Shown in pieces: positions 2,074 through 25,898 of a stretch of 31,955 nucleotides of DNA. Where the stretch lies: positions 1 through 31,955 of the IMG/VR virus record IMGVR_UViG_3300024520_000324. One strand, written 5' to 3'. Position numbers and translations under genes: made by a program. Every line of letters begins with the position of its first letter. Within the stretch, counting starts at the first letter, position 1. This DNA is from a virus. The notes under the pieces were generated by a model, which was not told the DNA's origin, made no database searches, and worked only from the letters and a program-made list of their open reading frames with translations.

Positions 2074-3834
2074 GTGGGCGCGACAGCCAAGACCCCCGGC
2101 ATGACCAGGCACCAGGCTCAGCGCCTCGATGGGGTGCTTGAGAACGCCCTCACCGGCATGGGCGTGGCCGGCGTGGATGTCGCCGAGTCCTCGGAGCTGT
2201 CCATGGTGGCCTACACGCCAGCCTTGGCGCGGGCACATGCGCGGTATTCGTGGGCCGCTGCACAGCAGATCGACCAGCCCGCGGGCGACATCATCCGCGA
2301 GGGGTACGATCTCGAAGACCTCCCGGAATGGGCCGACGCCTCGGCGATCAAGGCCTACCTCGCGGACATCGGCTCAGACTCGCACATGCCCGAGGATCGC
2401 GGGGCGCTCCAGGCCCTGTCGCGGCTCTACGCCGTTGGCAACATCGACGGTGGCGCAGCTGCGGTGATGATCATCGCCGATGGGCTGCCCGCGTGGATGC
2501 CGGTGGATCTCGAACGCGTCGAGTCGCTGGTCTCGATTGAGGTGCTCGAGCGCGATGAGATCACGCCATGGCGCAACGATGGCGGCGCCGTTGAATTCTA
2601 TGTGATCGGGACCTCGCGCACCAAGATCGGCCCCGCGTCGATCGTCCATCACTCGCGCGTGATCCTCAGCCGAGGCAAGCGGCTGATGCCCTCGGACGAA
2701 TGGCGCGCCAATGGCTGGGGGGCGAGCGTGCTCGAAGCGAGCCATGGGCCGCGGATGGCTCTGCACAGCACTGCCCAGGAGATGGGTTCGCTGGTGCTGA
2801 AGTCGATGCAAGATGTCGTCTATCTCGCCGAGCTCGAAGAGATGATGTGCGCCGAGGAGACCGGTGCCACGAACAAAGTTCCGATCGATGAGAGGATCGC
2901 GCTCATCGCTCGCAGCCGAGGACAGCACAGGCTGATCCCTCTCGATGCGGGCAGGGACGGAGGCGAGGGGGAAGCGGGCAGGCCGTCGGACAACATGACG
3001 TCAATAGCCCGACCCGTGCGCGGCGTGGCAGACCTCGCGGAGCCGGTCGAGAATCACTGGGCATCGAGCATCAAACAGCCCCCGAGCATCGCCCTGCGCA
3101 AGACCCCCGGCGGCTGGAACAACGGCACCAACGCGGGCGACTGGCAGGCGTGGGGCGGCTTCATCTCGAGCGAGCGGACCACGTGGCTTGACCCGCGCCT
3201 CGCCCGAATCATCGAGGTCGCATGCGCAGCTGCGGACGGCCCCACCGGTGGGCGGGTGCCAAAGTCGATGAAGCGCACCTATCCGCCGCTTTGGCGTCCG
3301 ACCGATAGCGAGCAAGCCGACACGGCCTCCAAGTGGGCGGCGACGGACACCGCCTACAGCGCAATCACGCCGCTGACCGGTGCGCAGATCTACGAGCAAC
3401 GACTCGTGCAGGGCGCGACGGGCATGCTTCACCTCGACCCGCTCCCCGTGCCGGATGTCGACCCCGAGACCGGGGCGCCCCTCGACCCTGAGACCGGCGA
3501 ACCGGTTCCCGAGGATGAACCCGCGCCAGAGCCCACCGAGGACGAGATCGCATGGAGCGAGGCGGAGCCGCCCGCCGATGCCGAGACCGCGCGCGCCCTC
3601 GTGGACACCGGCGAACTCGGGAGCACGACAGCCCAGGCGATCCACTCAATGGCCAGGAAGGGCGAGATCACCGCGTATCGCGGGCGGTCGGCGACGAAGG
3701 CCCCGCTATACTCGATGGTCGAGGTCAAAAACGCGATCCTCGCTCGCAACGCAGACCCCGAGCCGGACGTCGAGCTCGATGACAAACAGGACGCCAGCCT
3801 ATGGCGCCGGCTCATGGCGAGGCTGCGAGGGTGA
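2074..3834 (+). CDS. Portal protein, DUF1073 type, with extra C-terminal domain (586 aa)
   Basis: The portal forms the dodecameric ring at the head vertex through which DNA is packaged and leaves. Residues about 40-440 read like the DUF1073 (anti-CBASS-Acb1-unrelated) portal family: helical entry with SWAAAQQIDQPAGDIIREG, a beta region VHHSRVILSRGKRL, the long stem helix near 228-258, and PGGWNNGTNAGDWQAW at 345-360. Residues 460-500 are an acidic Pro-rich linker with a duplicated DPETG unit. Residues about 504-557 (TTAQAIHSMARKGEITAYRG then YSMVEVKNAIL) resemble a winged-helix excisionase-like fold, which is unusual. GTG 2074 is chosen for the AGGG 8 bases upstream; ATG 2101 is the alternative. 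Terminase genes follow directly. Confidence 0.8.
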   Translation: MGATAKTPGMTRHQAQRLDGVLENALTGMGVAGVDVAESSELSMVAYTPALARAHARYSWAAAQQIDQPAGDIIREGYDLEDLPEWADASAIKAYLADIGSDSHMPEDRGALQALSRLYAVGNIDGGAAAVMIIADGLPAWMPVDLERVESLVSIEVLERDEITPWRNDGGAVEFYVIGTSRTKIGPASIVHHSRVILSRGKRLMPSDEWRANGWGASVLEASHGPRMALHSTAQEMGSLVLKSMQDVVYLAELEEMMCAEETGATNKVPIDERIALIARSRGQHRLIPLDAGRDGGEGEAGRPSDNMTSIARPVRGVADLAEPVENHWASSIKQPPSIALRKTPGGWNNGTNAGDWQAWGGFISSERTTWLDPRLARIIEVACAAADGPTGGRVPKSMKRTYPPLWRPTDSEQADTASKWAATDTAYSAITPLTGAQIYEQRLVQGATGMLHLDPLPVPDVDPETGAPLDPETGEPVPEDEPAPEPTEDEIAWSEAEPPADAETARALVDTGELGSTTAQAIHSMARKGEITAYRGRSATKAPLYSMVEVKNAILARNADPEPDVELDDKQDASLWRRLMARLRG

Positions 3835-4328
3835 GCGACTCCCCGCGCGACCTGATCCGCCGCGTGATGGGGGCCCTCGCTCCGGGCGCCTCGGGCAAGG
3901 CGATGCAGACCGCCGAGCGCGACCTGATCAAGGCGGTCGTGCTGGTGCTCGCGCGCGACGGCTACACCCTGAACATGGCCGCGCTCGCGCTTGAGGTCCC
4001 GGTCACCACGCTGAGGAGCTGGCGGGATAAGGACGCGGTGTTTGCGGGCGACCTCGAAGGGTCCGATGGGCTCCACCGCAAATGGCTGCTCGGCGAGCTG
4101 CGTGCGAGGCTTGAGCTCGACGGCAAGCGCGAGGGCCTGTCCGGGGTGGGCCAGTCGATCAACGTGCTCTCGAATCTGGCGTTCCCCGAGCTGCGCGAGT
4201 CGAAGGTTCAGGTCAGCCCGCCGCCGCCGACACCGGACGAGAGCAGGGAGGCTGTGCTGGGCATCCTGAACAAGTCCAAGCCGAACGAGCTACCCGGCAC
4301 AACGCCGGCACCCGCGGACGCGATCTGA
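3831..4328 (+). CDS. Probable terminase small subunit (165 aa)
   Basis: GTG 3831 overlaps the portal stop (GTGA); an ORF start at 3801 inside the portal is unlikely. The middle of the protein has a helix-turn-helix, about residues 46-68 (TLNMAALALEVPVTTLRSWR), of the kind that recognises packaging sites in small terminases. A helical region follows to about residue 120, then a flexible proline-rich segment (SPPPPTPDE) and a short C-terminal part. It lies directly between portal and large terminase and overlaps the latter by one base. In the family the small subunit binds pac/cos DNA and stimulates the large-subunit ATPase. The call rests on the HTH and position, not on a strong family match. 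Confidence 0.65.
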   Translation: MSDSPRDLIRRVMGALAPGASGKAMQTAERDLIKAVVLVLARDGYTLNMAALALEVPVTTLRSWRDKDAVFAGDLEGSDGLHRKWLLGELRARLELDGKREGLSGVGQSINVLSNLAFPELRESKVQVSPPPPTPDESREAVLGILNKSKPNELPGTTPAPADAI

Positions 4329-5914
4329 TGCCCTACAACTCCACGCGCGAGGTGGTCGACGCCCTGCGCGAGGGGACCGACGAGGACCGGGCGCAGATCC
4401 TCGATGCCCTCGAGGGTGAAGAGGTCGGCGAGGGGATCACCGCGCTCGATGTCCTGCGCTACGACTGGTCGGCGTGGGGCCGGGATGAGCAGCTCATGCC
4501 AGGGCCGGACGTGCTCTGGCGCTTCCTCGCGCTCCGAGCTGGGCGCGGCGGCGGCAAAACCCGAGCAGGCGGCGAGGCCACCAACGAAGCTGGGCAGAAC
4601 CCGGATTCATGCGGCGGCAAGATCTGCCTGATCGCCCCCACGCACGGCGACATCCGGATCACCATGGTCGAAGGTGAGTCGGGCGTGCTCGCCTGCGCGC
4701 CCCCGTGGGCGATGCCCCAATGGCAGCCAGGCTATGGGCACGGTGGCCGGCTGCGGTGGGCGGGCGCACCCGTGGCCGCTGGTCACTCGACCGGGGCGGG
4801 CGACACCTGCGAGGCGCTTTGCTTTTCGGCTGAGAAGCCGGGTCGCATCCGGGGGCCCCAGTTCGGTTTCGCGTGGGGGGATGAGTTCGCAGAATGGGGG
4901 ACGCGCGGCCAACAGGTCCACGACCTGCTCAACCCTGCCCTGCGCCTCGGGCGGATGCCTCGCGCGGTCTACACCTCGACGCCCAAGCCCACGCCGTTCG
5001 TGGAGTTCCTCGACGGCGAAGCGACCCGCGAGCAGGAGGAGATCGCGGACGGGGATCGTGACCCGCGCAACCGCAGCTACATCCAGCGGATCTGGTCGAC
5101 CTTCGCGAACGCAGACAACCTGCCCGCGGCGACGATCGAGGAGTTGCAGCGGCGATACGGCAACACCACCCAAGGACGCCAGGAGCTCCTCGCCGAGCTG
5201 CTCCTCGACGACCCTGACGCGCTCTGGTCCTACGGTCTGATCGCCAGCGGAAAGGTGCTTCCCTCGCAGGTGCCCGAGCTTGAGCTCGTGGCCGTGGGCG
5301 TCGATAACGCGACCACAACCAGCCCACCGGGGTTGATCGATGATTCCACGATCGCAGGCCGTAACAAGGACGTCGGCAGCAACGACACCGGGATCGTCAC
5401 GGCCGGCCTCGGTGTCGATGGCCATATCTACATCTGGCGCGACGACACCTTGAACGCGTCCCCGGCGAAGTGGGGCAAGCGCGTGATCGAGGTGTTCGCC
5501 GATGCATGGCCAGGCCGGCGCGCAAATTACATCGTCTGCGAGAAAAACGCGGGCTACGACCTGATCAAGCGCAACCTCGACGTGTGCCTGCGCGACGAGG
5601 GGATCAACCCGGCCCTCGTGCCGATCCGGTATGTGACCGCTCGAGACGGCAAGGACGCGCGCGCCGAGCCGATCCATGCGCTCTACGAGCAGAAGCGGAT
5701 CCACCACGTGCAGTGGCCAGCGGGCGCGCCGGGATCGATCGCGCCCCTCGCTGACCTCGAGTACCAGCAGACACGATTCCGCCGCGGGCGCACAGGCTAC
5801 AAGAAGGACCGCGTCGACGCCGAGGTCTGGGCCGTCACGAGCCTGATCAGCGGACCGACGCCAGGCGGGCGAGCGAAGCGGGCGAAGAAGCGGCTGGCGA
5901 CCTACGTGAGCTAG
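4328..5914 (+). CDS. Terminase large subunit, packaging ATPase and nuclease (528 aa)
   Basis: This is the DNA-packaging motor. The ATPase half shows Walker A AGRGGGKTR at residues 71-79, Walker B hydrophobics with GDE near 184-186 (FGFAWGDEFAEW) and a coupling motif TSTPK at 216-220. The C-terminal RNase H-like nuclease half begins about residue 320 (ELVAVGVDNA, first candidate acidic residue), carries CEKNAGYD in the middle and ends with KDRVDAEVWAV, the expected late Asp motif. The nuclease half has a longer-than-usual loop (TTTSPPGLIDDSTIAGRNKD) after the first strand. The stop overlaps the convergent minus-strand gene (both TAG within CTAG, 5911-5914), so no terminator separates the two transcription units. 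Confidence 0.9.
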   Translation: MPYNSTREVVDALREGTDEDRAQILDALEGEEVGEGITALDVLRYDWSAWGRDEQLMPGPDVLWRFLALRAGRGGGKTRAGGEATNEAGQNPDSCGGKICLIAPTHGDIRITMVEGESGVLACAPPWAMPQWQPGYGHGGRLRWAGAPVAAGHSTGAGDTCEALCFSAEKPGRIRGPQFGFAWGDEFAEWGTRGQQVHDLLNPALRLGRMPRAVYTSTPKPTPFVEFLDGEATREQEEIADGDRDPRNRSYIQRIWSTFANADNLPAATIEELQRRYGNTTQGRQELLAELLLDDPDALWSYGLIASGKVLPSQVPELELVAVGVDNATTTSPPGLIDDSTIAGRNKDVGSNDTGIVTAGLGVDGHIYIWRDDTLNASPAKWGKRVIEVFADAWPGRRANYIVCEKNAGYDLIKRNLDVCLRDEGINPALVPIRYVTARDGKDARAEPIHALYEQKRIHHVQWPAGAPGSIAPLADLEYQQTRFRRGRTGYKKDRVDAEVWAVTSLISGPTPGGRAKRAKKRLATYVS

Positions 5915-17111: not shown

Positions 17112-17728
17112 GCGGCCTCGCTCGCAGCGGGCTCCTCGGGTTTGCGCAGTAGCGGGCGGTAGGTGTGGAGCAGCGAGGCCATGAGCAGGCCCCACTTTGT
17201 GCCGGGGTTGGCCTTGGTGAAGCCGGTGAGCGTTCCCCAGTTGGCGATCTTCTTGGTCTCCCCGCCGACGACCACGAACAGCCGGCACGGGGCGCCGTCC
17301 TTGCCGCCGAATAGGGCGAGGTCGAATAGCCGCATGATCTGCGCATGGTCGAGCCGGTCTGTGAGCTCAGGGATCGAGTCGGCGACCATCTGGCCCACGA
17401 ACTCTGGCACCCGCTTGCAGAGCGCGTCCCATGCTCGCTCCATGTGCTCATCCTTGGAGTCGGAGACTTGCAGGACCCGGTACAGGCGGGCGAGGTCGAA
17501 GCTCGCAGGTGCATCGCTGGCCTCGCCGTCCCATGCCGGGTCTGCCACGATGACGCGCGCGGCCTTGACGGCCTCGACCGCGAGGGAGCTGAGGATCGCC
17601 GCGATACCAGCTCCGATCGAAGGGCCGAGGTGGCGGCCGAGGATCATCTCGACGCCGACCTGCTCGCGGTCGTCGATCGCCACGAGCACGTACTCATGGC
17701 CGCCGATCTCCTGGCGCAGCTCGCTCAT
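17108..17728 (-). CDS. Tail assembly chaperone (206 aa)
   Basis: The gene sits between the tube and the second chaperone and overlaps both by four bases. The product begins with strands (HEYVLVAIDDREQVGVEMIL), then a mostly helical body, a pattern common in proteins encoded between tube and tape measure in this phage class. FDLALFGGKDGAPCRLFVVV and NWGTLTGFTKANPGTKWGLL in the C-terminal half suggest a conserved core. Such proteins bind the tape measure and recruit tube subunits. The call is by gene order and general features; no firm family match. Confidence 0.6.
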   Translation of the reverse strand: MSELRQEIGGHEYVLVAIDDREQVGVEMILGRHLGPSIGAGIAAILSSLAVEAVKAARVIVADPAWDGEASDAPASFDLARLYRVLQVSDSKDEHMERAWDALCKRVPEFVGQMVADSIPELTDRLDHAQIMRLFDLALFGGKDGAPCRLFVVVGGETKKIANWGTLTGFTKANPGTKWGLLMASLLHTYRPLLRKPEEPAASEAA

Positions 17729-18183
17729 TCGAAATCAGACGCTCCGAGCGAGGTGGGCGCCAGCCAGATCCCGACCGACGCGACAACGAAGGTCCCGCGG
17801 AGCACGTAGGGCACGAATTCCGCGCCGTCTTGGACGGTCACGGTCGGGTTTCCGACGATGGCAACGGCCGCAGACACCCACTTCGCACTGCCGTAGCTGG
17901 CGGCAAACGTGAGCGCTCGCCCGTCGTCGACCGAGCGACGGCGCCGGATGTCCATCTTCGAGTGGTCAGACGAGTGCGCGAGCACGTTTACGGTGACCTC
18001 ATACGCAAAGTTGGGTTTGAAGATGATCGCGCTACACCGATTCATGCCGCTGGTGAAGGTCGATTCATCGTTCAGTGGCGCGCAACTCATGAGCGCGCCG
18101 GTGTCTGGGAAGCATGTGAGCGAGAGCCCGCCGACGTTGACCGCGAACGTGCCCAGATTGAGAACTGTCGTTACGTTGCTCAT
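17725..18183 (-). CDS. Tail tube protein, DUF3277 type (152 aa)
   Basis: This 152-residue beta-rich protein directly follows the sheath, the usual place of the tube. It shows NVTTVLNLGTFAVNVGGLSL at the start, a central FAYEVTVNVLAHSSDHSKMD segment and a C-terminal PYVLRGTFVVASVGIWLAPT, which agrees with the DUF3277 family that accompanies DUF3383 sheaths. An AGGAG lies 4 bases before the ATG. Stacked hexamers of this protein form the inner tube for DNA. Confidence 0.75.
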   Translation of the reverse strand: MSNVTTVLNLGTFAVNVGGLSLTCFPDTGALMSCAPLNDESTFTSGMNRCSAIIFKPNFAYEVTVNVLAHSSDHSKMDIRRRRSVDDGRALTFAASYGSAKWVSAAVAIVGNPTVTVQDGAEFVPYVLRGTFVVASVGIWLAPTSLGASDFE

Positions 18184-18190
18184 GGTGCTC

Positions 18191-19567
18191 CTAGAGGGCG
18201 AGGTAGACCGAAACGTTCGCTTTGACGAGCTTGGGCGTAACGTTGACGTTGATTATCCACCCACCCGTGGTCTTGAGGTCGCCCGCCGAAACCTCGCCCG
18301 CTGGGATGTCGGCGATCGGCACATGCGAGACGGTGAAGTCGTCCGCGATCACGTCGTTGTTGACCAGCGGCGCGAGCATGGCCTCGAGCTCCTGGCTCAC
18401 AGCCTGGAGCCCAGCTTCATTGATGTTGACCCCGAGCGCCGAGGCTAGAGCCTGGTCAATGATCGCCATGGCGGCGAACCAGATCCAATCCTCAGCGTGG
18501 CGATGGTAGATGAAGGCCGGCACCCCCGTGGTGTTGGCCGAGGTGACCCCGTTGAAGAACTTGAGCGCCGAGGTGGGGCCATCGAGCCGCTCAGTGTAGG
18601 AGATCGACCGGTCGCGCATCGTGAGCGTGTCGGTCTCCGACCGCGCGCTCGTGATCGTGGTCTCTGTGAACCCGGAGATCGCCAGGTAGTGCCACTGCCG
18701 CGACCCGGGGAACGCTCCGCCGAGTCGCCCGATCGATGCGGGCTGCGTGTAGTCCGTGGCCGTCGGGTGCGACCTCAGGTTGACCCGCGGGTGAGCAGCT
18801 GTTTTCCAAACCGCGGCTAGGTTGTCCGTGTCCAGGGGGTCATAGACGCCGACGTCGTTGTTCTCGGCGAAGTAGAAATTGCGCCGGGTGGTCGTGTTGC
18901 CCTGGACCCACCGCAGCGCCTCGGCGAGCTCGAGGTCAACCGCGCCGGGAGTGAGGACGCCCCAGAACGGCGAGGCCAGGTAGGCGGCCACGAGGTCATC
19001 GTAGATCCCCACCGAGGCGATGGTCGGGGCGGTGCCGATGTCCATCTCTGTATTCGATGTCGGCGATGTCTGCGTGAGCACGATCGGGATCCCCGCGACA
19101 TCCTGGGTCATCGTCAGGGTGTCCGTGTCGACCGTCGCCGCGGTGTACCCCGCGATCGTGGCCGCGATCAGACCGTCCTTGATCTGCGTGGCGGTCGAGG
19201 TCGAGGCCGTGAACGTGGCAATCACCACGCCGCTATCGTAGAGCGCAAACACGCCATCGGTGGTCCCGGTGACGTCGATCGACCACTCTTCGGCCACCGC
19301 GCTCTGACGCGTGATCATGCGGATCGCTGACACCTGATTCGCGGTCGCGGTCTGCGCGAGTAGGTCGCCCATCGCGTTGTACGCGACATGAGACGTGGTC
19401 CAGCCGTCGTCCTCCATGGCGGTGAGCGTGGAGTACAGCGTAACCGGCCCCGTGACACCCGCGGGCGAGACGGGGGCGACCATCGAGTAGATCCGCGCCG
19501 TGTCTGGCGGTGCGACGGTGGCGGGAACCGTGAAGGTCTGAACTGATAGCCAGTCTGATTTGGGCAT
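18191..19567 (-). CDS. Tail sheath protein, DUF3383 type, with inserted module (458 aa)
   Basis: The contractile sheath: an N-terminal segment LYSTLTAMEDDGWTTSHVAY, a central PFWGVLTPGAVDLELAEALR, NFYFAENNDVGVYDPLDTDN and a C-terminal NEAGLQAVSQELEAML then GGWIINVNVTPKLVKANVSV match the DUF3383 sheath pattern. Residues about 94-186 (from WSIDVTGTTDG to GTAPTIASVG) form a separate beta module with STATQIKDGLIAA and LTMTQDVAGIPIVLTQT, also seen in the head decoration protein and tail terminator. It sits where the sheath can carry surface domains. An AGGAG precedes ATG with 6-base spacing. Contraction drives the tube through the envelope. Confidence 0.85.
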   Translation of the reverse strand: MPKSDWLSVQTFTVPATVAPPDTARIYSMVAPVSPAGVTGPVTLYSTLTAMEDDGWTTSHVAYNAMGDLLAQTATANQVSAIRMITRQSAVAEEWSIDVTGTTDGVFALYDSGVVIATFTASTSTATQIKDGLIAATIAGYTAATVDTDTLTMTQDVAGIPIVLTQTSPTSNTEMDIGTAPTIASVGIYDDLVAAYLASPFWGVLTPGAVDLELAEALRWVQGNTTTRRNFYFAENNDVGVYDPLDTDNLAAVWKTAAHPRVNLRSHPTATDYTQPASIGRLGGAFPGSRQWHYLAISGFTETTITSARSETDTLTMRDRSISYTERLDGPTSALKFFNGVTSANTTGVPAFIYHRHAEDWIWFAAMAIIDQALASALGVNINEAGLQAVSQELEAMLAPLVNNDVIADDFTVSHVPIADIPAGEVSAGDLKTTGGWIINVNVTPKLVKANVSVYLAL

Positions 19568-19576
19568 CGTGGGCTC

Positions 19577-20383
19577 CTAGATACTGACCGTGATGGCCGG
19601 AGGGCCGGCCAGGCGGGCGGCGGGGTCTTGGTATGCGCGGGTGGCCCAGCCCTCGAGGGACAGGTCCAGCGTCGCCTGTGAGGTCGAGTCGCCGCGGGTC
19701 GGCGATGGGGTGAGCGCGGCGAGCACGGCGACCTTGTCCCACCCGAGCGCGCGGATGGCTGGGCGCAAGATTCGCTCAACATCCTTGCGAGCGCGCAAGA
19801 GCAGGTCGCCGGCGGTGAGAAACCCGCGGGTCTGGCTTGACCGCCAGCTCGTTCGCCAGGTCATGCGGCTCCATTCGGCCTCGAGCTCGGGGTACCGCTG
19901 GACCACGGTGGTCACGCTCGTGATCCCCAGGGCCGTCGACGCAAAGAGGGGCTGAGCCGTGGAGCCGGTGACCAGCACGCTCGCGGTGTCCTCGGGGTCG
20001 GCTGCTGCGGTCACTCCCGCGGGAAGCTCGGCGGTGAGCTCGGCGAGGAGCGCGGCTGCGCTGGTGTCCTCGGTGTCTCCGCCGCCTGCGGTGATCGAGA
20101 TCGCGGTGGGCGTCTCGGTGAACCCGAGCGAGAAATCGACGCCCACGGTCCCCGCGCCTGCGGCCGTGACCGTGTAGCGCTGGACCATGATGCTTGGGAT
20201 CTTGACGATCTGCGGCTTGGAGATCTGGACCAAGCCGAACCAGGAGATCTGCGCAGCCGGTGGCGCGGGGATGGGCGCCCCCGAATCCGCGGGCTCCACG
20301 AAGTAGGGCGCGGCCCCGGTGCTCGAGGTGACCCACGTGGAGAACGCGGTCTCCAACTGCTCTAGTGCGATCGGCGCGGTCAT
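19577..20383 (-). CDS. Tail terminator, LIC_12616-like, split by an inserted module (268 aa)
   Basis: ATG 20383 overlaps the previous stop (ATGA). Gene position before the sheath and the two outer parts (residues 1-68 and about 161-268, the latter with LLRARKDVERILRPAIRALG) fit the small neck/tail terminator family that caps the finished tail. Between them residues about 69-160 carry a beta module like those in the sheath and decoration protein. The module is flanked by a repeated VQRY (67-70 and 161-164), whose DNA (20174-20185 and 19892-19903) matches at 11 of 12 bases. This looks like an insertion with duplicated ends. Confidence 0.65.
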   Translation of the reverse strand: MTAPIALEQLETAFSTWVTSSTGAAPYFVEPADSGAPIPAPPAAQISWFGLVQISKPQIVKIPSIMVQRYTVTAAGAGTVGVDFSLGFTETPTAISITAGGGDTEDTSAAALLAELTAELPAGVTAAADPEDTASVLVTGSTAQPLFASTALGITSVTTVVQRYPELEAEWSRMTWRTSWRSSQTRGFLTAGDLLLRARKDVERILRPAIRALGWDKVAVLAALTPSPTRGDSTSQATLDLSLEGWATRAYQDPAARLAGPPAITVSI

Positions 20384-20793
20384 GGTGTCGCCCCGATCTC
20401 GGTGCCGGTGTAGCGGCGGAACGGGTCGAGGAGCGGGCCCTGCCCGTCGTGAGGCTCTGCGGCGGTGATCTCGTAGTCTCGCCCGCCCCACTCGATCCGG
20501 TCGCCTGGGGGGCCCTCGTCATAGTTGGAGGGGGCGATCTGCAAGCCGGTCCAGCCCACGAGCGCGAGGTCTTCAGCGGTGGCCCACACATCGATCGTGC
20601 CGGAGCTGGAGTCGCCCTCGGTGGCGCGGGTCAAGCTCTTGCCGGTCGACTGGACCGAGAGCGTGACGACCGTGCTGGCCTCGGCGCCGGGGGTGAAGCG
20701 GCCGTCAGCATCGCGAGTGCCAGCGGGCCGGCGTCGGACCGTGTACGGCAGGCGGCCGGTCGTGATCGAGTCGTCTAGCAGGCTGAAACTCAT
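20380..20793 (-). CDS. Head closure/adaptor-type connector protein (137 aa)
   Basis: This small beta protein sits between gp10-like and terminator genes, where head-closure proteins lie. It has LPYTVRRRPAGTRDADGRFT at the start, an internal SVQSTGKSLT strand and a C-terminal IEWGGRDYEITAAEPHDGQG, with a GRDYEI strand typical of adaptor/closure beta barrels. It overlaps both neighbours by four bases. The function is inferred from order and size. Confidence 0.55.
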   Translation of the reverse strand: MSFSLLDDSITTGRLPYTVRRRPAGTRDADGRFTPGAEASTVVTLSVQSTGKSLTRATEGDSSSGTIDVWATAEDLALVGWTGLQIAPSNYDEGPPGDRIEWGGRDYEITAAEPHDGQGPLLDPFRRYTGTEIGATP

Positions 20794-21236
20794 GTCTCGG
20801 CCTCGCTGGTCTTGACGATCTTGGACTCGACGGCCTCGACCATGTCGCCATCGTGGATCAGCTTGCGCGAGTCCTTGCGCTTCGCGGCGTCTGATAGCGC
20901 CTTGCCCTTGACCTCGCCACCTTCGACGTAGAGCTTGATCGCCTGCGCGGCCTGGTCGCCAACATCAGTCACAGCGCCTCGGGCGGTCTGGGCCCCGTCG
21001 CTGACCTTGCCGGCTTCGGCCTCCATGCGCGTGGTCAGCTTGGGCACGGCGAGGTCAGCCGCGGGTCCGATCCATGGCCGCCGTGCGACCCCGTCTCCAT
21101 CCTCGTGACGCCAGCCGATCGTTGCAAGCTCCTCATCGTGCAGCCCGACCATAGCCGCGAGGTCAAACCCGGCGAGGCGCTTGCGCACCGCGTCGAATTC
21201 CTTGCGGTCATCGGTGACTGTGATCGTGACGGGCAT
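20790..21236 (-). CDS. HK97 gp10-like neck protein (148 aa)
   Basis: The protein matches the general plan of gp10-like/virion morphogenesis neck proteins: an N-terminal helix, then GWRHEDGDGVARRPWIGPAA at about 41-60, a long helix with TDVGDQAAQAIKLYVEGG and a C-terminal LSDAAKRKDSRKLIHDGDMV near 113-132, which corresponds to the conserved LIDTG-type segment. These proteins connect the connector to the tail terminator. It overlaps the next gene by four bases. Confidence 0.7.
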   Translation of the reverse strand: MPVTITVTDDRKEFDAVRKRLAGFDLAAMVGLHDEELATIGWRHEDGDGVARRPWIGPAADLAVPKLTTRMEAEAGKVSDGAQTARGAVTDVGDQAAQAIKLYVEGGEVKGKALSDAAKRKDSRKLIHDGDMVEAVESKIVKTSEAET

Positions 21237-21610
21237 CAGGCGGGCTGGGGGCTGGGGGGCATGCGGTTGCGGCGGGTGCCGCGAACGCGAGCGATGATGT
21301 TGTCCAGGGCCTGGCCGTAGACCGTGGACCCGTGCTCACCGGTAGCAGCTGCACCGGCAGCTCGAGAGACCGACTTCCCGCCGCGGGACTCGCCGGTGAT
21401 CGAGCCAGCCGGGACCGCGGGGCCAGTGCCCTCGCCGTCCTCTTTCAGGAGGTGGCAGGCTTTCAAGAGCACGCCTTCATCGGGGTCGACTCCAGCGCAC
21501 AGCCACTTGCCAGCCGGGATCGCAGCGACCGCCCGATTGATCCAGAATTGCGCCGTGTCGGGGTCGACGGCGGCGAACTCTGCGGGCAGGTCTGCGATCA
21601 CTACGGTCAT
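21236..21610 (-). CDS. DUF4054-type head-tail connector (124 aa)
   Basis: The pattern of DUF4054 is clear: an N-terminal FAAVDPDTAQFWINRAVAAI, then W with LLKACHLLKEDG (the AHLL position), a central GSITGESRGGKSVSRA (the conserved G-S-S-G-S loop) and STVYGQALDNIIARVR at about 94-109. DUF4054 proteins are head-tail connectors found with DUF1073, DUF2213, DUF2184 and DUF3383 genes. A one-base overlap links it to the gp10-like gene. Confidence 0.75.
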   Translation of the reverse strand: MTVVIADLPAEFAAVDPDTAQFWINRAVAAIPAGKWLCAGVDPDEGVLLKACHLLKEDGEGTGPAVPAGSITGESRGGKSVSRAAGAAATGEHGSTVYGQALDNIIARVRGTRRNRMPPSPQPA

Positions 21611-21613
21611 GGG

Positions 21614-22207
21614 TCACACGATCGTCTGGGCGCGCTCGGCTGCGCGGAACTGCTCCTGCGGCGAGACCAAGGGGGGGCGCTTCCTGGCGAGCTCGCCGAG
21701 GGCCGAGAAGTCGACGGGCGCCTTTTTCTGGATGCGCTTGAGCGCGCGCGCGAGCAGCTCCACGATCTTGGGCTGGCGACGCTCACGGCGACCGGCGGTC
21801 ACGGGGCGCTGGTCTTCGAGGTCATACATCCACGCGACGGCCGCGGGGTCGGTCGAGATTTTGGCTAGCAGCGTACGCGCGGACACGCTGGTGTGACCGG
21901 TCAGGTGCTCGTCGGTGGTCGTGATCTTGCCGTCCGCGATGAGCTCGGCGACGCGCTTGTTAGCCTCGCAGCCGGCCCATTGCTCGGCGGTACGGATGTT
22001 CAGGCCGGGGGCGAGGCCCACGAAGTCCTCGCCGATCTGCCAGGTCTGGGGGCCCTCGTGCGTCGGCTGCCAGTGACCCTCGGGGCCAGTGGTGCCGGCG
22101 TAGACCAGCCACACGCGGTCGGTGGGCGCGGCGTCCTGGGCCTCCTCGGAGGGGGCGGCGCCGGAGCGTAGGCCAGTGAGCTTGTCGTTTTTCTTGCTCT
22201 TGCTCAT
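21614..22207 (-). CDS. Hypothetical protein between capsid and connector genes (197 aa)
   Basis: Directly after the major capsid gene (ATGA overlap) and before the DUF4054 connector. The first 30 residues are charged and flexible; VWLVYAGTTGPEGHWQPTH starts an ordered part; a helical C-terminal region is rich in Arg/Lys (RRERRQPKIVELLARALKRI). No family is recognised. Position suggests a head or neck component, for example a head-tail joining or capsid-associated protein. There is no membrane segment and no catalytic motif visible. Confidence 0.65.
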   Translation of the reverse strand: MSKSKKNDKLTGLRSGAAPSEEAQDAAPTDRVWLVYAGTTGPEGHWQPTHEGPQTWQIGEDFVGLAPGLNIRTAEQWAGCEANKRVAELIADGKITTTDEHLTGHTSVSARTLLAKISTDPAAVAWMYDLEDQRPVTAGRRERRQPKIVELLARALKRIQKKAPVDFSALGELARKRPPLVSPQEQFRAAERAQTIV

Positions 22208-23295
22208 ACCATCTCGAATCGCATGATCAGGGAGGCGTCGCGGCAGATGACCGAGGCGGTCTGCGCGATCAGGATGAAATCGGTGTCAAACTCGACATCG
22301 AAGGGCCCGAAGAGCTGGGGCGGAAGCGCGTCGATGTAGAGGTCCTCGGAGTCGGCGGACCAGAGTTGCCACATGGCGCCGTCCGAGCTCGAGGCGGTCA
22401 ACATGCGGTTGTCCCTGACCGGGTTCGCCAGCCAGGGGAACTCTTCCACGAGCAGGGCCGAGATCAGCGAGTTGCCGCCCGGCATGAATATCCGCTGGAT
22501 GTGCGCCCAATGGCTCCGGGGCATGATGACGCCGGACGGGGCCCGGTTCGGGTTGGCGAGGTACCAGGCCTCATCGATGATCTGGAGGTTGATCAGGAGC
22601 TGATCAACGGTCGTCACGCTGAGGAAGTCGAGCGGGAGCGCGAAGGTGTAGGCGCAGCCGTGAGTGAAGAACCCTGGCTGCTCGCGCTCATCCGAGCCGA
22701 AGCCAGCGGCGCGCTCGAAGTGCTGGTCCATCGCATCGACGGCGCCGGCTTGCTGGTCGGCGGGGATGTTCTGGCCGATCAACTCGGCGCGCCAGAGGTC
22801 GAAGCTGTTCCAGCCGAACCGCGCACCGTAGAGCGCGACGGGCTGCTCCTTCTTTTCGTTGGCCTGGCTCGAGCGAGTGAGACCGCGAAGCCCGCCCGCG
22901 CCGATCCATCGCGCCTCGCCGGAGATCGCGTCAACCTCCCACTCGATCGTGGTCTGCCCGAGCTTGGCCTTGCTGCTCACCGGGAGCAGGCCGCCGCGCT
23001 CGCCCGTGCGACCGGGAGCGAACAAGAACTGCTCCTTACTGATCTTGCGCTTGCTGGTGAGCACCGCTGCGAGGGGAGATGTGGTGAACACGCTCGCAGC
23101 GTCGTGACGCTGTTTGGCGTCCATGCGCTTCCCAGCCGGCCGCTTCGCGTCGTGTTTGGCGATGTGGCGGTCCATCACCGCGACGGCGCCAGCGACGTCG
23201 TTTTCGAGGTCGAGGTGCGAGTCCATGACCTGCGCCGTGGACATGCCAAAGGCGCGGCAGATCTCGGACAGTGATCCGTTGACGAGTGTGCTCAT
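22204..23295 (-). CDS. Major capsid protein, DUF2184 type (363 aa)
   Basis: The product reads like the DUF2184 major capsid family (HK97 fold): an N-terminal helical segment to about residue 95, then beta strands, then ALYGARFGWNSFDLWRAELI with the typical GYS-DEL-RA position near 160, a long helix DQQAGAVDAMDQHFERAAGF, and later MPRSHWAHIQRIFMPGG and a final strand LIMRFEMV. Two ATGs are available; 23301 overlaps the decoration stop, but ATG 23295 has GGAG 7 bases upstream and is preferred. The prohead protease encoded nearby is expected to trim the N-terminal delta-like part. Confidence 0.8.
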   Translation of the reverse strand: MSTLVNGSLSEICRAFGMSTAQVMDSHLDLENDVAGAVAVMDRHIAKHDAKRPAGKRMDAKQRHDAASVFTTSPLAAVLTSKRKISKEQFLFAPGRTGERGGLLPVSSKAKLGQTTIEWEVDAISGEARWIGAGGLRGLTRSSQANEKKEQPVALYGARFGWNSFDLWRAELIGQNIPADQQAGAVDAMDQHFERAAGFGSDEREQPGFFTHGCAYTFALPLDFLSVTTVDQLLINLQIIDEAWYLANPNRAPSGVIMPRSHWAHIQRIFMPGGNSLISALLVEEFPWLANPVRDNRMLTASSSDGAMWQLWSADSEDLYIDALPPQLFGPFDVEFDTDFILIAQTASVICRDASLIMRFEMV

Positions 23296-23297
23296 GA

Positions 23298-24533
23298 TCA
23301 TTCTCCGGCGCTGTGCGCGATGACAAGGGCCGCGATGCCGGCGGCCGTGGTGGTCTGTAGAAACTTGGCCCCGACATAGATGTCGTGGTCCGAGGCGGCC
23401 GCGGTGGTCGTGACGTCGGCCAAGGTGCCGGCTTCGGTCTGCTCGAAGGTGAGCTCAAAGCCCGCGTCCTGGGTCATGATCATGGTCGCGGTCCCGGTGG
23501 GGGTGATCAACGCGCTGAGTGCGACGTTCTCCGCGAGGCTTGCGACCAGGCCGGTGACGATCTCGGTCGCGGTGGCGGTGCCGTCCGAGGTCATGCTGAT
23601 GAAGCCATCGGCCGCGACCACGCCGGTGTGCATGTTGGTCACCGTGAGTCGCGCCCCGTACAGGGTGTCGTTGACCGCGGTGGGGGTGATGGTGATCACC
23701 TCCTGCGTGTGGTTGTCCGGGGTGTCGGTCAGGGCGCCGTTGATCTCGGTGCCCGCGGCCGTGGTCCGGAAGTAGGCTTGCGCATCGATCGCGCAGGACG
23801 ATTCGGCGTAGACGGTGCACGAGCCCCATGCGGCGTAGAGCACTTCAGCCTTGCGCAGGTAGAACTTGTGAGCGTCGCCGGGGCTCGATGCTTCGACGAA
23901 GTTGGAGTCCAGGGCGATGCCGAGGACGGTGTCTCCGGCGACAGCGTTGGCGCACTCGCGGGACCCATTGGGGTTGACGGTGCCCTGCGCGATGACCGTT
24001 CCGAGGCGGATCGGAGCGTCGGCGGTGCCCGTGGTGACCGAGCTTGAGGTCAGGTTGCCATCGGTGACCAGCGTGAATGTGAACGACGCGCCAGGAAGGC
24101 GAGCGGTCAAGATGACGTCGTCGCCCGAGCTCGTGACCAGGACGATATCGCGGATCCGGTCGTAGTTCGACAGGTCGTCGAGGGTGGCGATCTTGGTCTG
24201 CGCGGTCGCAGCAGCCTCGAGGCCAGCGGCCACGGCCGCGAGGGTTTGGGTGCCCGCGGTGACGAATGCGATCGACACGGGGCCGATGTCGTCGGGCCAA
24301 GCCGCCCCGGTGGCCATCAGGGTCGGCGTCACGGTCAGCGTGGTGATGTCCGCGGTAGCCGTCGAGGTCAACAGGGTGATCGTGGTGACCTGCCGAGTCG
24401 ACGGGTACAGCGCGAAGTCGTCCTCATGCTGCCGTCCGTCGAGGCGGTTGCCGGGCTGGGGGAGGGGGTTGAGCTCGCGGCTGCCCGAAGTGAACGGGGC
24501 CTGCGCGAGGGGGCGGATGATGAATTGTGACAT
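23298..24533 (-). CDS. Head decoration/cement protein with two inserted modules (411 aa)
   Basis: Located between protease and major capsid, the standard place for a cement/decoration protein. The central residues about 171-272 (RLGTVIAQGTVNPNG, AGDTVLGIALDS, EVLYAAWGSCTVYAESSC) look like the cement beta barrel. On either side lie two copies of a beta module: residues about 50-170 (TVTP, VSIAFVTAG, LTARLPGASFTFTLVTDG) and about 278-383 (ITITP, DGTATATEIVTGL, MIMTQDAGFELTFEQT). The second copy is closest to the sheath module (MTQD followed by alternating hydrophobics). Family length without inserts would be near 190, so inserts more than double it. Exposed domains on the capsid are likely. Confidence 0.65.
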   Translation of the reverse strand: MSQFIIRPLAQAPFTSGSRELNPLPQPGNRLDGRQHEDDFALYPSTRQVTTITLLTSTATADITTLTVTPTLMATGAAWPDDIGPVSIAFVTAGTQTLAAVAAGLEAAATAQTKIATLDDLSNYDRIRDIVLVTSSGDDVILTARLPGASFTFTLVTDGNLTSSSVTTGTADAPIRLGTVIAQGTVNPNGSRECANAVAGDTVLGIALDSNFVEASSPGDAHKFYLRKAEVLYAAWGSCTVYAESSCAIDAQAYFRTTAAGTEINGALTDTPDNHTQEVITITPTAVNDTLYGARLTVTNMHTGVVAADGFISMTSDGTATATEIVTGLVASLAENVALSALITPTGTATMIMTQDAGFELTFEQTEAGTLADVTTTAAASDHDIYVGAKFLQTTTAAGIAALVIAHSAGE

Positions 24534-24536
24534 GGG

Positions 24537-25898
24537 TCAGGTGCTCCCTACGACGTTGTTTGCGGCGTCCTCGCGCTGCTTTCGGATTTTGTCTTGAAGT
24601 GCGACGAATTCCGCGTTCGCGGTCTCGCGCGAGTCCTCGCGGGTCGCATTGATGCGCTCGAGCAGCACTGCGCCGTGGTCTGGGGCGGCGTCGATCTGGT
24701 CGCGCAGGCGCGAGAACTCCAGCGCTGTGCCGGTGGGCTTTTGCTTCGCGTCGAGCTTGTCGACGCGCGCGCTCGCGGTGGGGTCGAGCTTGAGCACGAC
24801 CGCGGACCGGATCTGGTCAACGGTGAGGCGCTTGTAGCCCTTGGCATCGCTGCGCTGGTACTTGACCGCGAACACGCGTCGAGCGACCTCGAGCACGTCC
24901 GAGCGCTCGTCCTCGCGGCGTATGCGGGCGTCCATCTTGGACTCTACCTCTTCGGGCTCCTCTTCCTCGGGCTCCTCTTCGCCCTCGCTCGGGGGCGGGG
25001 TCTTCTCTTCGGGCTCCTCTTCCTCGGCGTCAGCGACCGGCGCCGGCGCAGGGGCGGGGGCCTCGGGTGCGGCTGGGCTGGCGCCCTCGGCCCCGAGCGC
25101 GCTCATGGCGGCCATCATGTCGGGGTCGTTGCTCTCCCCGTAGATGTCGACCCATGCGTCCATGGCGGCTTTGCGGGCCTTGCCATCGAGGCGCATGAGC
25201 ATTTTTGCGTATTGCTTGGGGTCCATGGTGGTCGAGTCCTGTTTGGGTTGGCGCTTGGGCCAGCTGCCGAGGTCGAAGATGAGGGGGCGCGCGTCCATGC
25301 GAGCGCTGGCGATGTCCGCGAGGGCCTTGCGTGTCACCTGCGCGTACTTGGCGGCATCGGCGACGACGCGGGCGGTCCCGGCGTTGCCCTCGGGTACGCC
25401 TGCGCAATGGTCGCCGATGATCTGGGTCTGGCTGAGAACGTAGTCCGCGCCGAACTCGGCGACGCCGGGGGCGTCGCTCGGGGCTGTCCCGGGCGTTTCG
25501 TCCGCGAGGATCGAGTACCCGAGGCTCAGGTCGGCGGCCTCAAGCGACGCGATCGCCGCGTTCCACTCGTCGTCCCACACCATGATCTTGCCGGATGCGT
25601 GGATCCCGTCCTCGTTCATGACGGCGGTGTCGCCGGTCGCGCCGCGGACCGGATAGGACCCCTCGCCAAAGGTCGTGCCGAAGTTGGTTTCGGGGTGCAG
25701 CAGCACCCCGGGGAGTAGTGAGAGAGTCGGGAGCGATGCCTCGACCTCCTCGAACGACCTGAACTCGTTTCCGTCCTTGCCGGGCTGGATGCCCCACCGC
25801 CCGAACAGCGCATCGTACAGCACGCGGCCGTTGGAGAGAGTCTCCGAGGCGTCGCGGCGCACCTGGAACGCCCATCGGCGGTGTAGGAGTGCGCTCAC
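24537..25898 (-). CDS. Prohead protease fused to scaffold, DUF2213 type (453 aa)
   Basis: The GTG overlaps the previous stop (GTGA). Residues about 1-180 match the DUF2213 prohead protease: GIHASGKIMVWDDEWNAAI at 98-116, LSLGYS at 124-129 with candidate nucleophile Ser, and QIIGDHCAGVPEGNAGTARV with His164 as candidate partner. An acidic, proline-rich stretch (about 271-320) then leads to a helical C-terminal part (321-453) that resembles a scaffold. One polypeptide would thus direct assembly and then digest it. The reading frame holds a 23-bp repeat in the acidic part (24948-24970 and 25005-25027). Confidence 0.8.
   Translation of the reverse strand: MSALLHRRWAFQVRRDASETLSNGRVLYDALFGRWGIQPGKDGNEFRSFEEVEASLPTLSLLPGVLLHPETNFGTTFGEGSYPVRGATGDTAVMNEDGIHASGKIMVWDDEWNAAIASLEAADLSLGYSILADETPGTAPSDAPGVAEFGADYVLSQTQIIGDHCAGVPEGNAGTARVVADAAKYAQVTRKALADIASARMDARPLIFDLGSWPKRQPKQDSTTMDPKQYAKMLMRLDGKARKAAMDAWVDIYGESNDPDMMAAMSALGAEGASPAAPEAPAPAPAPVADAEEEEPEEKTPPPSEGEEEPEEEEPEEVESKMDARIRREDERSDVLEVARRVFAVKYQRSDAKGYKRLTVDQIRSAVVLKLDPTASARVDKLDAKQKPTGTALEFSRLRDQIDAAPDHGAVLLERINATREDSRETANAEFVALQDKIRKQREDAANNVVGST
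24948..25027. repeat. 23-bp in-frame direct repeat in the acidic scaffold region
   Basis: Positions 24948-24970 and 25005-25027 are identical over 23 bases, 57 bases apart (19 codons), so they keep frame. They encode Glu/Pro-rich EEEPEE units. Such repeats in linkers arise by slippage and can vary in copy number. Confidence 0.85.

Follow-up and report, generated by a model that had tools for sequence, protein, structure and literature searches.

Additional domains in tail sheaths have already been described (PMC9230969). The sheath extension domain (SED) of Agrobacterium phage Milano gp20 comprises residues 91-203 and is external (PMC10811340), and equivalents exist in DUF3383, Mu/SfV, PhiTE, Bas63 and Sf14 sheaths. 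The module analysed here resembles these domains in profile homology, predicted fold and sheath position, but it additionally occurs outside the sheath, with two copies in a head cement protein and probably one in a tail terminator. A curated sheath beta-sandwich domain, Phage_sheath_domII (PF17481), matches the Milano SED weakly (E 0.034) and gave no match at E ≤ 1 to any protein of the window, by which we mean the whole 31,955-base IMG/VR virus contig that was analysed. The second relevant precedent is the promiscuous Ig-like domain of phage virion proteins (Fraser et al. 2006, as cited in PMC9230969). The likeness lies in one optional domain type on several unrelated virion proteins, with weak surface adhesion as the proposed function; a search of the window proteins with the Pfam Ig families gave no match at E ≤ 1. 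Ig-like domains are mostly appended at protein ends, whereas the present module is inserted in loops and has a predicted helix that separates strand 3 from strand 4. It is best read as a promiscuous optional surface-insertion domain, a variant of the Ig-like-domain phenomenon.

The domain in sheaths, promiscuous Ig-like domains on phages and a survey of extra sheath domains are already known. The use of a sheath domain in head cement, terminator or baseplate-J proteins was not found in the non-subscription literature searched. The initial annotation knew of no description of the distribution, which agrees with that search; however, additional sheath domains are on record (PMC9230969) and close architectures are present in public phage contigs.

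The contig is a fragment from a contractile-tailed phage of the DUF2213/DUF2184/DUF3383 type. Its minus-strand morphogenesis operon encodes, in order, a DUF2213 protease, a 411-aa protein, a DUF2184-type capsid protein, neck proteins, a 268-aa protein, the sheath (phrog_205), the tube, the tape measure and the baseplate (Table 1), and this order is matched in Klebsiella phage Mulock, Elizabethkingia phage EKP1, Bordetella phage IFTN9 and others. The portal and the terminase large subunit lie at 2074-5914 (+), on the other strand from the rest of these morphogenesis genes; among phages the terminase is matched best by Pseudanabaena phage Pan1, at about 36%.

Table 1. Features of the morphogenesis operon and the four module copies; residue ranges are approximate.
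Feature	Position	Strand	Basis
Capsid maturation protease (DUF2213)	24537..25898	-	family assignment
Head cement/decoration protein, 411 aa	23298..24533	-	slot between DUF2213 protease and DUF2184-type major capsid protein, filled in relatives by PF22758/PF23982 cements of 162-166 aa
Module D1 (likely), cement residues ~47-176	24006..24395	-	hhalign against sheath-SED profile, shuffles, L030 counterpart
Module D2, cement residues ~275-386, predicted beta3-alpha-beta4	23376..23711	-	tblastn, hhalign, AF2, Foldseek
Major capsid protein	22204..23301	-	PF09950, phrog_264
Tail terminator, 268 aa	19577..20383	-	gene order (directly before sheath), N-terminal alignment
Module T (probable), terminator residues ~66-162	19898..20188	-	combined HMM, control ORFs, tree grouping
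Tail sheath, 458 aa	18191..19567	-	phrog_205/DUF3383 type; phrog_205 E 1e-16
Module S, sheath extension domain (SED), sheath residues ~89-190	18998..19303	-	SED slot in sheath alignment, AF2, hhalign
Probable tail tube protein, after sheath	17725..18183	-	phrog_280; DUF3277 position in relatives

The virion proteins of the window are strongly diverged. Searches of phage records by tblastn gave no match for the sheath, capsid and terminator proteins, for S or T alone, or for the D1 segment of the related cement from the L030 phage, and locus scans with the window sheath, capsid protein and baseplate J returned zero or almost zero usable loci of close relatives. For this reason the relationships of the window module were linked via D2. 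With the whole head protein as the query, tblastn matched just two phage records, both at the second module (residues 281-380), and both matches were tail sheaths, of Vibrio phages 1.170.O (E = 2e-5) and 1.121.O (E = 0.04).

A first profile, made from an alignment of these matches, recovered 20 IMG/VR loci in which the module nearly always lies in the sheath, at residues ~85-200; module-bearing loci were found via the module itself, and no frequency is derivable from them. Against the PDB the same profile matched the solved sheaths gp76 (9zdk, 3.7e-12) and Phi92 gp130 (2e-10) and those of Bas63 (9e-5) and Sf14 (0.0067), all at residues ~85-200. A second profile, of Milano/Mu-type sheath domains, matched the Milano, 7-7-1 and Mu (chain 9khy) sheaths in the PDB. 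It also recognized one cement protein (5e-13) and one sheath (2e-6) of the first group, and the two groups are therefore one family.

Homology between D2 and the outer SED of tail sheaths is evident from several directions. Aligned by hhalign to a profile of modules from other phages, D2 gave a probability of 98.7% (E 2e-16). In the AF2 model of the whole cement it is the sole confident part (pLDDT about 84-96 over residues ~281-360), with strands at 279-284, 291-300 and 306-315, a helix at 322-335 and strands at 343-346, 351-355, 359-365 and 371-377. Foldseek with this model returned the Milano tail sheath (8foy) as the top PDB match, together with the PhiTE, 7-7-1, Bas63 and Sf14 sheaths. 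S is likewise homologous to sheath SEDs. It lies in the SED slot between the two core halves in a full-length sheath alignment, it aligned to the SED profile (37%, E 3.6e-4), and the AF2 model of the window sheath matches solved sheaths by Foldseek (E 1e-15). At moderate confidence S is predicted to contain strands at 92-98, 105-111 and 114-121, a helix at 126-140 and strands at 144-147, 150-155, 162-168 and 171-175. These elements equal those of D2 in order, one for one; both models were built from alignments with SED rows, and the agreement tests compatibility and is not wholly independent proof. The common fold that the initial annotation looked for is predicted for D2 (high confidence) and S (moderate confidence); D1 is modelled poorly, with low confidence and only a helix (98-116) visible. 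Weak fold neighbours of the models were flagellin FliC (4nx9) and its D2/D3 domains (8erm_A), a crAss001 unique-vertex protein (7qoh_f) and a Bxb1 capsid chain (9d9x_Ha). A link between the module and the flagellin variable domain is no more than possible.

All four segments noticed by the initial annotation are present at the proposed places (Table 1). Compared directly with each other, they gave shuffle p-values of 0.008 (D1-D2), 0.0065 (D2-S), 0.017 (D2-T) and 0.08 (D1-S), and T-S and T-D1 were at chance level. This similarity is modest, and by itself suggestive. The pair singled out as best, MIMTQDAGFELTFEQT and LTMTQDVAGIPIVLTQT, does align, but the MTQD letters of the proposed strand are not a conserved feature of the family, whose consensus reads LILTADxAG. 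Scored with a combined module profile from which window sequences were left out, D2 reached 33.3 bits, T 9.4, S 4.1 and D1 1.5; among 2777 unrelated control ORFs, 1 scored as high as T, 15 as high as S and 69 as high as D1. In hhalign every segment beat 100/100 composition-preserving shuffles. A profile search therefore detects homology outside the window, beyond chance, and with these outside sequences the case is strong for D2 and S; D1 and T are least certain.

One could hold that D2 and S are the only true homologues and that D1 and T reflect a coincidence of Thr/Ala-rich beta-strand composition, in keeping with the chance-level comparisons of T with S and D1 and with a D1 HMM score that is not rare among control ORFs. 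We regard this as improbable, since no composition-preserving shuffle (0/100) reaches the hhalign score of either segment. D1 aligned to the sheath-SED profile (68%, E 4.7e-5), and its counterpart is the N-terminal module of the two-module L030 cement (406 aa), which carries its inserts in the same two places; D1 is likely, if less certainly than D2, a member of the SED-type family. T groups with Milano/Mu-type sheath SEDs (support 96/80), scores best after D2 among the 25 window proteins with the combined HMM (iE 0.0014) and aligns to the combined profile in hhalign (24%, 8e-4), which suggests that it is probably a module copy in the terminator. Residues 5-54 of this protein align to the terminator family above shuffles, and it gave no direct HMM match to PF23961. 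Its C-terminal core is too diverged to align to relatives, and the reading of T as an insertion is therefore based on where it lies, on protein length and on the N-terminal match.

Homologues lacking the module were found for all three proteins. PF22758 (E217 gp24, Pam3 gp6) and PF23982 (XM1 gp53) cements share the gene slot of the window cement, but the standard members are ~160 aa long and have no module; XM1 gp53 has 160 aa and the XM1 terminator 161 aa (PMC10457771). Cement relatives of 162-166 aa contrast with 255 and 275 aa for cements with one module (L026 and L032), 406 aa for the two-module L030 cement and 411 aa in the window. The window cement has no direct HMM match to PF22758, but it occupies the PF22758 gene slot and aligns to the L030, L026 and L032 cements, which match PF22758 themselves and yet carry the module. 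The L026 cement is divided between a head family (phrog_563, residues 5-147) and a tail-sheath family (phrog_165, residues 137-226, E 8e-7), and this core/module split independently expresses the sharing of a domain between head and sheath. Terminator family members have 161-213 aa compared with 268 in the window. Some sheaths also do without the domain: such DUF3383 sheaths have 381-382 aa and the Pam3 sheath 382, compared with 458. The sheath copy is not peculiar to this phage. Many DUF3383 and Mu/Milano-type sheaths carry this common optional domain, the SED, and short ones lack it. DUF3383 sheaths of the Manatee Spring and Bordetella phages (L019, L021) carry an insert at ~100-205 in the SED slot that profile comparison did not clearly connect to the module; it is perhaps another domain, or else a copy that has diverged very far.

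The module also recurs on several virion proteins of other phages. Both the cement (two copies) and the sheath carry it in the L030 phage, as do cement and sheath in L026 and L032; sheath and baseplate J carry it in Vibrio phage 1.170.O and the L042/L043 phages; and sheath, probable terminator and baseplate-J protein carry it in Vibrio phage 1.121.O, where the terminator copy is weak (E 0.036; hhalign probability 65%, but 2% with the combined profile). The protein at the terminator position of the latter phage (L025:2624-3619) has 331 aa and belongs to phrog_8405. A sheath-type module (E 4.5e-7 to 1.2e-4) is also present in Baseplate J-like proteins, from Vibrio phages and from two IMG/VR phages (L135:1316-2746, L136:1240-2685, L133, L134), and the Baseplate_J match of L133 is split into two stretches. 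Whole-model matches in BFVD include proteins of 466 and 323 aa with near-adjacent accessions, which we tentatively take to be the sheath and terminator of one Vibrio phage. The proposal that head, neck and tail proteins share one domain type is supported, more firmly for D2 and S than for T and D1; in the cement and the terminator the domain is an insertion absent from the family baseline.

A second, unrelated cassette of ~93 residues (GTYTLRI...AFTLADGSTDFVVGDTFTV) occurs in cement-position proteins, encoded upstream of the capsid gene, of L037, L038 and L042 (233-240 aa) and is missing from that of L036 (146 aa). Because this cassette is cleanly present or absent, cement-position genes seem open to several kinds of insert.

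The suggestion that the domain is spreading recently does not fit the data. Copies in the window are mutually ≤32% identical, and the best partner of each is always another phage's copy (D2 48%, to the L030 cement; D1 32%; S 30%; T 29%). Recent duplication within the genome was rejected on this divergence, which instead indicates old exchange or old duplication; the tree left the number of transfers among copies unsettled.

Taken together, we consider it probable that one autonomous SED-type domain, an optional surface accessory gained and lost by domain transfer, is copied in all four segments. The domain would comprise ~95-110 residues (three strands, one helix, four strands) and would occupy the SED slot of the sheath, two loops of the trimeric head cement and probably one loop of the neck terminator. 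As the family cores of the host proteins are intact and relatives lack the insert, the module would be an accessory on exposed loops and not assembly machinery. Copies would have been exchanged over long times among virion genes. E217 gp24 and XM1 gp53 are trimeric and sit at three-fold axes, and module-bearing cements should therefore present their modules in groups of three across the capsid; the terminator forms a hexameric ring, and the sheath is a helical stack (PMC10457771). All module positions would be compatible with outward loops; surface exposure on head and neck, like the function, is inferred. The module would most likely act from the virion surface, by adhering weakly to polymers of the host or the environment and/or by lateral stabilization between neighbouring subunits.

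What the copies do is a choice between adhesion, stapling and near-neutral persistence, which we rate about equal; the exposed accessory position is common to all. A shared adhesion tag, by which head, neck and tail would all attach to one host-surface or environmental ligand bound by every copy, is unlikely: the surface location of the sheath SED is documented (PMC10811340), and help with adhesion or stability has been proposed for additional sheath domains (PMC9230969), but conservation tracks core hydrophobic and helix positions with no evident shared site, and the divergence of the copies argues against one shared ligand site. It is rather unlikely that the module instead staples neighbouring subunits laterally in cement trimers, sheath ring and terminator ring. 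Capsids are reinforced by cement proteins and Domain II of the phage 812 sheath touches its neighbour (as cited in PMC9230969); against this, relatives build the same structures without the module, and the insertion sites differ in symmetry, making one shared contact unlikely. A near-neutral cassette that folds on its own and that surface loops tolerate, with no common function, would explain the patchy presence across relatives, the unrelated ~93-residue cassette that other phages carry in this type of protein, and the supposed non-essentiality of the additional domains in the T4 sheath (PMC9230969). We find this rather unlikely too, as a two-module cement persists in the L030 phage as well as in the window, deeply diverged though the two are, which suggests selection.

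Returning to the optional SED-type accessory, we would tentatively extend it, as a reading slightly less likely than not, to a virion-surface cassette in general use among tailed phages, moving between cement, terminator, sheath and baseplate-J genes and coating some virions over their full length with one domain type. The finding ties the poorly understood extra domains of sheaths to inserts of head, neck and baseplate proteins and so defines a single family to annotate, express and assay, and capsid cement proteins may offer a natural set of insertion sites that tolerate an extra domain of ~100 residues.
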